Below are positions 31,232-57,105 of a DNA stretch of 64,000 bases, piece after piece (positions within the stretch are counted from its first letter, which is position 1; each line of letters begins with the position of its first letter). The notes below the pieces were generated by a model. It made no database searches, was not told the DNA's origin, and saw nothing but the letters and a program-made list of their open reading frames with translations. Origin of the DNA: Pedobacter planticolens (GTDB lineage: Bacteria; Bacteroidota; Bacteroidia; Sphingobacteriales; Sphingobacteriaceae); contig NZ_WNXD01000002.1 of the NCBI RefSeq assembly GCF_014172375.1, positions 1,612,001 through 1,676,000 of the forward strand. Reading direction: 5' to 3'. A program made the translations under genes and the position numbers.

Positions 31232-31251
31232 CAAAGTTGTGCATGCTAGGT

Positions 31252-31587
31252 TTCTTTTTGCAGGTGGTGTAATTCTTTTGGCGGGTGGTCTAGTTCTTTT
31301 TGCGGGTTGTCTAGTTCTTTTTGCGGGTGTTCTAGTTCTTTTTACGGGTGTTCTAGTTCTTTTTACGGGTTGTCTAGTTCTTTTTGCGGGTTGTCTAGTT
31401 CTTTTTGCGGGTGGTCTAGCTCTTTTTGCGGGTGGTCTAGTTCTTTTTACGGGTGTTCTAGCTCTTTTGGCGGGTGGTCTAGTTCTTTTGGCGGATGGCT
31501 TAGTTCTTTTGGCGGGTGGTCTAGCTCTTTTTGCGGGTGGCTTAGTTCTTTTTGCGGGTGGTGTAGTCCTTTTGGTAGGCAGTTTAT
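31252..31587. repeat. 21-bp tandem repeat (minisatellite), about 16 units
   Basis: Fifteen full copies and one decayed copy of a 21-bp unit, consensus TTCTTTTTGCGGGTGGTCTA plus G. Copies differ at a few recurrent positions (TTC/CTC, TTT/TTG, GCG/ACG, GGT/TGT/GTT, GGTCTAG/GGCTTAG). CTAG recurs at fixed phase. Because 21 is divisible by 3, long frames stay open: on the + strand LVLFAGG and SSSFCGW heptads, and on the - strand a basic RPPAKRT heptad without an ATG. The rest of the 647-bp gap (31054-31700) holds only short repeats. Confidence 0.95.
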
Positions 31588-31700
31588 TCGTTTAGTTGGA
31601 GTATATTCCCTTAAAAGACTAGTAATTAGCTAATTTGTGGCTGTTTAAATTCTATACCTTGAGGTTAATTAATAAGTGTATTTATTTAATGATTTAAACA

Positions 31701-32444
31701 ATGTCTAAAATTAATGAAACAGGAGAAGCTAAAAATCTAGCGAACTTTGAAATTTTAATTACTTATGTAATTGGTTTTGGTGCAATTTATAAGCCGTCTA
31801 GGGCATCGATTAGTGTTGGCAATATGCAGGGGCAATTGGTAAAGGCAAAGGATGTAGTTAATGAATTACATGTGGTGTTGGCTAGTTGGAGTAATGCTGT
31901 TGCTGCTAGGGAGATAGAATTTAAACCTTTAAGGGGGTTAAGCACTCGTTTATTAAATGCTTTAAAAGCTACTGATACTCCACTACAGATAATTGAGAAT
32001 GTAGCAACTATAAATAGAAAGTTGCAGGGTAAAAGGGCATCGGCTAAATTAACGGAGGAGGAGAAAAGTGCATTGGCAGCTGAGGGGAAGGCGGTTAATC
32101 AGATTTCTGTATCGCAACGGGGTTATAATAATATGTTGGATCATTTTGATAAGTTGGTTAAGTTGCTGGCTTCTATCCCTCAGTATAAGCCGAATGAAAC
32201 GGAGTTGAAGGTTGCAACATTGACTTTGTTATATACTAAGTTGCAACAATTGAGTATGGCGGTTGTTGCAACTGAAATTGAACTTAGTAATGTGCGTTTG
32301 TTGCGGAACGAGTTGATGTATAACTTGGAAACGGGTGTTGTTGCTACTGCTCAGGATGCAAAAACATATGTGAAATCTGTGTTTGGTGCTGGTAGTGCTC
32401 AATACAAACAGGTTTCTGGTTTGATTTTTAAAATGGCGAAGTGA
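31701..32444 (+). CDS. Hypothetical protein, helical, unknown function
   Basis: A 247-residue protein that is mainly alpha-helical by eye, with no signal peptide or membrane segment. I do not recognise a domain. The N-terminus (ITYVIGFGAIYKPSRASISVGNMQGQLVKAKDVV) suggests a repeat of two similar helical bundles, the second starting near KLLASIPQYKPNETELKVATLTLLYTKLQQL. The phrase Y-K-P-(S/N)-x2 followed by a helix with L-x2-L occurs in both halves, so an internal duplication is likely. It stands between the minisatellite and the 1-kb repeat region and ends in a strong terminator. Confidence 0.75.
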   Translation: MSKINETGEAKNLANFEILITYVIGFGAIYKPSRASISVGNMQGQLVKAKDVVNELHVVLASWSNAVAAREIEFKPLRGLSTRLLNALKATDTPLQIIENVATINRKLQGKRASAKLTEEEKSALAAEGKAVNQISVSQRGYNNMLDHFDKLVKLLASIPQYKPNETELKVATLTLLYTKLQQLSMAVVATEIELSNVRLLRNELMYNLETGVVATAQDAKTYVKSVFGAGSAQYKQVSGLIFKMAK

Positions 32445-32464
32445 TTGTAAGGATGTTGATTGTA

Positions 32465-32495
32465 AATCCTCTAAGGTTTCTTAGAGGATTTTTTG
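32465..32495 (+). terminator. Terminator of the hypothetical gene
   Basis: AATCCTCTAAG (32465-32475) pairs perfectly with CTTAGAGGATT (32480-32490) around a 4-nt loop and continues into TTTT. It begins 20 bp after the stop codon. Confidence 0.88.
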
Positions 32496-32545
32496 TTTTT
32501 CTATATATGTCATGCTTGTCATCCAGAGCGCAGCGAAGGATATCT

Positions 32546-32828
32546 TTTTTAGCTCGCCGCCGCTGTGGCTCTTACCTTTTTCTTGATAAAAAGGTAACCA
32601 AAAATCAAGGCTGTGTATCATCTCTCGGATTAAGCTATTAAAACTTTTAAGGCAACAAGCAGCAGGTTCGATGAAAGATCGAACTGGCTCATTGTTTTGA
32701 GCTGTGGTTTTTGAAAGGTAATGGAGAAGTTTTAATGCTTTCTCCTTCGGGATGCTACAAGGCCGGTCCTCGTTCTTGGGAATGGGTTGTGGTTTTGGAA
32801 AGGTTGTAGGGCGGTTGCGTCATTGCGA
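32546..32828. repeat. 283-bp direct repeat, copy 1
   Basis: From TTTTTAGCTCGCCGCCGCT to GCGGTTGCGTCATTGCGA. It aligns without gaps to copy 2 at a constant offset of 408 bp, with few differences. It contains a 10-bp hairpin (TTACCTTTTT/AAAAAGGTAA, loop CTTGAT, 32572-32597), a GTTCGAT/ATCGAAC hairpin, and a GGAGAA…TTCTCC pair. No convincing coding frame. Confidence 0.92.
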
Positions 32829-32953
32829 CCGTAGTGGAGAAATCTTTCTCGCTTATTAATCTATCAGTTGTTGTGGATTATTAATCTGTTTATATATTTT
32901 CAGCTGTATTAATGAGCTCAGAAGTTCGGTTTCAAATCCACTTTTATTTATAA

Positions 32954-33236
32954 TTTTTAGCTCGCCGCCGCTATGGCTCTTTCTTTTCTCTTGATAGAAA
33001 AGAAACAAAAGATCAAGGCTTAGTATCATCTCTCGGATTAAGCTATTAAAACTTTTAAGGCAACAAGCAGCAGGTTCGATGAAAGATCGAACTGGCTCAT
33101 TGTTTTGGACTGTGGTTTTTGAAAGGTAATGGAGAAGTTTTAATGCTTTCTCCTTCGGGATGCTACAAGGCCGGTCCTCGTGCTTGGGAAAGGGTTGTGG
33201 TTTTGGAAGGGTTGTAGGGCGGTTGCGTCATTGCGA
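32954..33236. repeat. 283-bp direct repeat, copy 2
   Basis: The second copy of the element. Its first hairpin is TTTCTTTTCT/AGAAAAGAAA with the same CTTGAT loop (32980-33005). Compared with copy 1, three stem pairs differ and all three are compensated, while most of the remaining sequence is identical. Confidence 0.92.
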
Positions 33237-33241
33237 GGCAC

Positions 33242-33274
33242 GAAGCAATCTTTCTTGACTAGATAGATTGCTTC
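33242..33274. repeat. REP-like inverted pair
   Basis: GAAGCAATCT (33242-33251) and AGATTGCTTC (33265-33274) are perfect reverse complements, inside a longer pattern of GTCATTGCGAGGCACGAAGC and GGCAATGACG that is typical of short interspersed repeats. Confidence 0.55.
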
Positions 33275-33576
33275 ACTCCATCACTTTCCCCTAGCTTCGG
33301 TTGGCAATGACGACCGCATTTCCCACTCGTTATTGCGAAGGAGTTTCTTCACTGACCGCTATTGCACAGGTTTTTGTTATTTAAACCTGATTGTAGTGTA
33401 AAGCCCGCAAGTTGAGGTACGAAACGAGGACTTGAAACGGAAAGCAGGACTGACTTTAATAGTTGTGGTGTTTTTGCTTTTCGAAAAAGGAAAAATGTTT
33501 TAATAAGGATTTAGGAGATCCTTCGCTGCGCTCTGGATGACAAAATACCACATAGGTGGCATAGTTTTAAGTTTAA

Positions 33577-56929: not shown

Positions 56930-57025
56930 AAATTAAGGTTAATCGGGCTTTCTGCTACAATCTTTTTTGTACTTCAACTACGCTCAGTATAACAAAAAAG
57001 GATTTCCGCTTCAATCCAGTTTATT
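56930..57025. repeat. Dispersed repeat (CGGGCTTTCTGCTACAATC … GGATTTCCGCTTCAATCC)
   Basis: Within the 370-bp gap, CGGGCTTTCTGCTACAATC and TTTTTTGT at 56944-56970 face ACAAAAAAGGATTTCCGCTT at 56992-57011. The two halves are near reverse complements, and a second motif (ACTACGCTCAGTAT) sits in the middle, suggesting one repeat inserted in another. Nothing else in the gap looks like a gene. Confidence 0.5.
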
Positions 57026-57105
57026 GAACAAACGACTGTGCTACTATTGAGAGTTGCAAAGTGTTAAAAACTATGAGATTATATAAATTTTCATACTACA
57101 AATCT

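Follow-up and report, generated by a model that had tools for sequence, protein, structure and literature searches.

Among described systems, the REP/REPIN sequences with their TnpA-REP (RAYT) come close to the element reported here, which is likewise dispersed, intergenic, non-coding, hairpin-based and present in high copy number, although it is much longer and combines a pseudoknot with a rod. Bacteroidetes REPs of subclass 2.6 have atypical flanking structures and are said to lack the GT[AG]G foot, according to the main text of PMC6006769, the description used for comparison. No such foot was found in the aligned copies, where the bases before the short palindrome, P2, are CTC, CTT, TCT and similar, and in the genome studied here no hairpin-model match lies in the stretches around the Y1_Tnp genes, so that no copies were seen to flank a cognate TnpA-REP gene. 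HEARO, the omega RNA of IscB, is a mobile structured RNA of ~200-300 nt with a pseudoknot; the element resembles it in size and pseudoknot but has neither an Rfam match nor a reading frame, and neither IscB nor TnpB recurs among the 25 of 205 families listed for 127 flanking ORFs, single matches being possible. The RNA of type III toxin-antitoxin systems (ToxI) is a small pseudoknot with a triplex-like loop, arranged as ~36-nt tandem repeats before the ToxN gene, whereas the element has no ~36-nt tandem repeat, and its unit, in arrays too, is hundreds of nucleotides long and dispersed. Telomerase has an H-type pseudoknot with a triple helix. For the H-type pseudoknot of SAM-V, the available text of PMC6061858 describes base triples formed by a loop strand that runs along a stem, an arrangement like that proposed for the element. 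Unlike SAM-V and telomerase, it has no ligand or gene context, and its triple is deduced solely from covariation. Pseudoknots repeated in tandem also make up the STAXI motif, found near DNA-handling genes in the available text of PMC2864571, but the element lacks both a recurrent neighbour and a match in Rfam.

The element was returned neither by a search of Rfam 15 at gathering scores nor by the available text of the open-licence literature, supplements aside (PMC12306157, PMC2864571, PMC6006769 and PMC8040213 included). The sole sub-threshold Rfam match over it with E below 0.01, BTnc005 (22.6 bits vs a threshold of 174.8), was dismissed as a chance likeness of two terminator-like stems. Apparently, this is an undescribed, dispersed and gene-free Bacteroidota family in which letters change freely while a large fold is kept.

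Copies and fold of the element

The window, the whole 64,000-nucleotide stretch of Pedobacter planticolens DNA analysed here, contains two copies on the forward strand, at 32541..32828 and 32949..33236. These bounds rest on the copies of this genome, in which conservation starts at the T-tract that precedes TAGCTCGCC and ends near GGCGGTTG. The two copies (288 bp each) align without gaps at an offset of 408 with 18 differences (94% identity), which bears out the 283-bp direct repeats at this fixed offset described in an earlier note (267/283 positions identical over its coordinates).

Each copy has a first hairpin, P1 (TAGC..GCT, 32550..32565; 32958..32973 in copy 2), recognised by eye and unscored, whose arms vary among copies (TAGC/GCTA, CGGT/ACCG, CTCGGC/GCCGAG). 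It is followed by a 10-bp hairpin, P2 (32572..32597), with arms at 32572-32581 and 32588-32597 around the loop CTTGAT (32582-32587); its counterpart in copy 2 is TTTCTTTTCT/AGAAAAGAAA (32980..33005). A connecting strand, L3 (32598..32603, CCAAAA; CAAAAG in copy 2), leads to the pseudoknot partner ATCAAG at 32604..32609 and 33012..33017, both correctly located in the earlier note. Across copies, P2 measures 10-11 bp and the connecting strand 6-7 nt. Then come the body, a rod (P7/P4/P5/P6; 32609..32764 and 33017..33172) closed by GGCT...AGGCC and tipped by the hairpin P6 (GGTTCGAT/ATCGAACT, 32665..32684), and a 3' tail (32765..32828) kept in the copies of this genome and variable elsewhere. There are no MITE-like terminal inverted repeats: the inverted repeat of the rod is non-terminal, with P1, P2 and the tail outside it.

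Six of the 18 differences make up three compensated P2 pairs, as had been claimed: from copy 1 to copy 2, 32574/32595 changes from A-T to T-A, 32576/32593 from C-G to T-A, and 32580/32589 from T-A to C-G. The six bases of the connecting strand contain two more, previously overlooked (32599, C to A; 32603, A to G), at positions that match two of the altered P2 pairs in register. Since both P2 variants are present as whole modules in other copies of this genome, the difference within the window may be one block exchange rather than three successive compensated mutations. The genome yielded 52 BLAST pieces, 28 extracted loci and 30 matches to the rod model at E up to 0.01. In the 28 loci, P2 falls into a few discrete variants, all pairable, with a constant loop. 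In nine of them, an insert of ~44 nt separates the 5' arm from CTTGAT, where an H-type pseudoknot has its loop 1; one of these nine (L021) has lost the loop. The extract of another locus, L026, did not fit the simple loop pattern either, but the other strand of that locus has an intact hairpin.

In 20 diverse gap-free copies, 8/10 P2 pairs are double-changed and 99.0% of stem cells pair; the 41 double-change cells were equalled in 0/500 shuffles, and the covariation score was 0.592, compared with at most 0.164 for slid partners. A set of 88 distinct copies, drawn from both the genus and the phylum sample, likewise gave 8/10 double-changed pairs and 99.0%. The helix contains 5 G-U against 1570 Watson-Crick pairs and 34 mismatches, a scarcity of G-U that is unusual for an RNA helix. 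The pseudoknot proposed earlier between CTTGAT and ATCAAG gains support from compensated variants in relatives. All six pairs form in 148 of 162 distinct parsed copies (CTTGAT/ATCAAG 134, CTTGAC/GTCAAG 8, CTTGAA/TTCAAG 5, CTTGGC/GCCAAG 1), 30 of the 263 hairpin matches having been dropped as unparsable, and CTTGCT/AGCAAG is a further compensated variant. Among the 88 distinct copies, the two variable pairs show seven double changes each, and the last position is unpaired in 12 rows. As loop bases 1-4 are almost invariant, this covariation is informative for loop positions 5 and 6 only, and the invariance of CTTGAT/ATCAAG partly reflects ascertainment, because the hairpin model and search patterns contain this pair. 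A 6-of-6 pseudoknot is present in all of 27 further, previously unused hairpins, whose listing itself required at least 5 of 6.

For the rod (~155 nt), 24 bodies from the genus gave 22/39 double-changed pairs, with 92.7% of cells pairing and a covariation score of 0.349 (at most 0.117 for slid partners; the partner-slide control gives 5 to 7 pairs). In P6, 6/7 pairs are double-changed. Rod pairs include G-U, the closing triplet varies (GGC/GCC, GAC/GTC, GCC/GGC), and the weak columns are 36/137 (14/24 unpaired), 58/92 and 59/91 (12 unpaired each). Homologous bodies occur in other families: the genus-built model, which misses most distant bodies, matched 25 times in 100 loci from other taxa and viruses, and 19 of these matches begin at the pseudoknot partner of a hairpin match (18 full-model; L113 only 34 nt). 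The 93% of rods that close is partly built in, because ends were picked by a complementary triplet and the 74/190 candidates lacking one were dropped. Energy folding, a weak test, formed the rod in 119/155 bodies vs 55/155 shuffled, and 36% of the bodies in the closing-triplet set have a fold z above -3. The plus strand is the more stable in 56/104, not a significant asymmetry. In L059-L063, a second body family (CTACGGAAATCT...AGATTTCCG) stands behind the same pseudoknot domain.

The earlier note had read selection on pairing from the two window copies, a claim exposed to the finding of many copies free of covariation. Covariation is present instead in P2 (20 and 88 copies), in 24 rod bodies and in the 27 further hairpins, and supports the claim. 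On these comparative grounds, we regard a conserved fold as very nearly certain.

We numbered P2 pairs from the loop (p1 onwards) and the connecting strand backwards from ATCAAG (l1 onwards). Mutual information is maximal for l1-p2, l2-p3, l5-p6 and l6-p7, each strand position l_i being associated with pair i+1, and is low elsewhere except for weaker signals of l6 and l7 with the outer pairs, a region in which the lengths of strand and arm overlap. When each of 122 loci contributed a single copy, p2 T was accompanied by l1 A in 52/53, p2 C by l1 G in 10/10, p6 C by l5 C or G in 5/5 and p7 T by l6 A in 15/16 (Fisher p 3e-6 to 3e-16, phylogeny ignored), while p2 G takes l1 A or G alike; four off-register controls on these loci were not significant. 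Counts in the 27 new hairpins were 11/11 for p2 T with A, 5/5 for p2 C with G and 1/1 for p3 C with G. This register-specific link probably reflects base triples, the connecting strand being a putative third strand along P2. In an alternative hairpin, l5 and l6 might instead form Watson-Crick pairs with G of the 3' arm, which is impossible for l1 and l2. Under the classical pyrimidine triplex rule, T-A takes U and C-G takes C, which fits the opposite strand of the element; since that strand leaves no linker over the 6-bp stem, chemistry and geometry favour different strands. If the triples are real, the pseudoknot would be a rare case in which they are visible by covariation.

Distribution, genomic context and probable movement

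DNA matches to the window element were found in 19/41 genomes, and the hairpin model detected relatives in 94/296 Bacteroidota genomes and 51/139 genera; copy numbers are minimum values, since no more than 21 candidates were scored in each genome. At least 119 stretches contain a strict pattern, and the 80 listed comprise, by title, 71 from Bacteroidota in the narrow sense, 7 of Balneolaceae type and 2 from Fusobacteria, the last with possible rods. Several genomes have tandem arrays with a spacing of 330-460 nt. Among plasmids, the window element gave one short match and a Chryseobacterium-like unit none, and a short hairpin query matched at 27 places in five Persicobacter records. The phage search gave one partial match.

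Copies sit intergenically between ordinary-looking genes. By crude ORF calling, neighbours are found in every relative orientation, and no Pfam family occurs in more than 5 of 127 flanking ORFs, a tally that includes every family with at least two members. With the window locus as query, the interval between the herA-like and M42 peptidase genes had no hairpin match in six congeners; regex matches in one stretch (L252) do not form stems, and the hairpin model did not recover them. In two congeners, the two genes are nearly adjacent, their BLAST ends lying ~127 and 420 bp apart; in the gap stretch of one genome (G008, L253), synteny is not clean.

Other repeats surround the two window copies. 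A 29-nt inverted pair (97%; 32516-32544 and 33515-33543) of a common dispersed repeat (CATCC..GAGCGCAGCGAAGGAT) brackets both, and similar repeats precede many copies in this genome. The REP-like repeat GTCATTGCGAGGCACGAAGCAATCT (33226-33274) adjoins the 3' end of the element, again with similar sequences after many copies. Upstream, a 247-aa protein without a Pfam match (31701-32444) has a 73% DNA relative at G000:C2:628405-629296 and, by eye, look-alikes near elements in L061 and L062; just before this ORF lies a tandem array of ~21-bp units (TCTAGTTCTTTTTGCGGGTGG-like, 31239-31595). Elsewhere in the window, a Flavo-1 RNA scores above its gathering score (56937-57026, minus strand).

Phages offer presence/absence comparisons. 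Between two genes, L254 has 323 nt including the element, and the same interval measures 18 nt in L255 and L256. At a second site, with flanks 90-96% identical, L260 (200 nt) and L262 (237 nt) carry the element and L261 (47 nt) does not, but L261 has another small hairpin there, hence no clean empty site at high identity. L260 and L262 have the rod in common, but each has its own, fully paired version of P2 and the pseudoknot, a block exchange of P2. At another site, the element is present in L268 and L276, and other sequences, partly other inverted repeats, in L269, L270 and L271; the intergenic site before the MSDKKITELP gene in L268-L271 (gene labels by eye) holds different repeats in different phages. 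Inspection by eye of copies in the P. planticolens genome and of L254 showed element boundaries that are not sharp; a possible target duplication at L254, AAATAA, is A/T-rich and may be chance.

Possible nature of the element

High copy number, gene-free sites, copies both dispersed and in tandem, lineage-specific presence, presence/absence in phages and block exchange of P2 all support mobility, and we consider a mobile or selfish repeat quite probable. The specific reading that we favour, with rather better than even confidence, is a non-autonomous mobile repeat with no reading frame and a length of ~200 to 290 nt, in which a folded nucleic acid would be what is transmitted. Its fold would consist of P1, P2 with the loop-ATCAAG pseudoknot, the connecting strand along P2 in fixed register, and the ~155-nt rod with its closing GGC/GCC or equivalent. 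A trans-acting protein would read this fold, on which both copying and the spread of copies would depend. Recurrent neighbours, Y1_Tnp and RVT_1 yielded no partner.

A rather unlikely alternative is that the element acts purely as DNA, with P2 and the rod as a single-stranded or cruciform substrate of an HUH or other single-strand transposase, REPIN-like and with no RNA function. The near absence of G-U from P2 and the lack of strand preference in the rod fit this, as does a somewhat higher frequency of Y1_Tnp in element-bearing genomes (75/94 vs 135/202 others; Fisher p 0.027, relatedness ignored). However, rod pairs include G-U, Y1_Tnp matches are absent from 19/94 element-bearing genomes, and the three Y1_Tnp stretches of the P. 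planticolens genome (~3.2-3.4 kb each) contain no hairpin-model match. One Y1_Tnp gene of this genome (L068, 1393-1920, minus strand) has the subclass 2.6 motifs NHIH, WQ and YIHQNP and is flanked by hairpins of its own, different from the element. Y1_Tnp was rejected as mobiliser, the association being weak and the genes of this genome not being flanked by the element, and RVT_1 reverse transcriptase showed no association (42/94 vs 93/202). With 15/94 element-bearing genomes having neither, Y1 transposases and RVT_1 reverse transcriptases are not obligatory companions, and the earlier idea of a transposase acting on the hairpin found no backing.

Intact structure in nearly all copies and phylum-wide spread would also suit a small-RNA gene family kept copy by copy for a cellular function, but this is improbable given the inconstant context, the absence from 202/296 phylum genomes at the model's cut-off, and the swings in copy number and tandem arrays. 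That the copies are cis-regulatory leaders or terminators agrees with their intergenic position and is very improbable in view of the diverse families and orientations of their neighbours. A short coding sequence is barely credible: an ORF (32441-32641) does run through the hairpin of copy 1, and one variant reads FLDKKVTKNQG, but in the variant of copy 2 this frame is interrupted by a TGA in the loop, and the varying length of the connecting strand breaks the frame.

Within the favoured reading of a mobile folded repeat, the folded molecule seems somewhat more likely to be RNA than single-stranded DNA, because the rod keeps G-U pairs and loop 1 has 0-1 nt over a 6-bp second stem, the classical geometry of RNA pseudoknots; that both rod strands fold equally well (56/104) speaks against a firm choice of RNA. 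An unlikely but attractive extension is a bacterial counterpart of SINEs, a gene-less parasite whose folded RNA, with a triple-helix pseudoknot, would be copied in trans by an enzyme, P2 serving as an exchangeable recognition module. If the mobile reading is true, a class of intergenic DNA that is large and common in Bacteroidota and missing from Rfam 15 would be a structured mobile family, and this family would offer a testable handle on the copying agent and on why a single helix is exchanged as a unit and the remainder retained.
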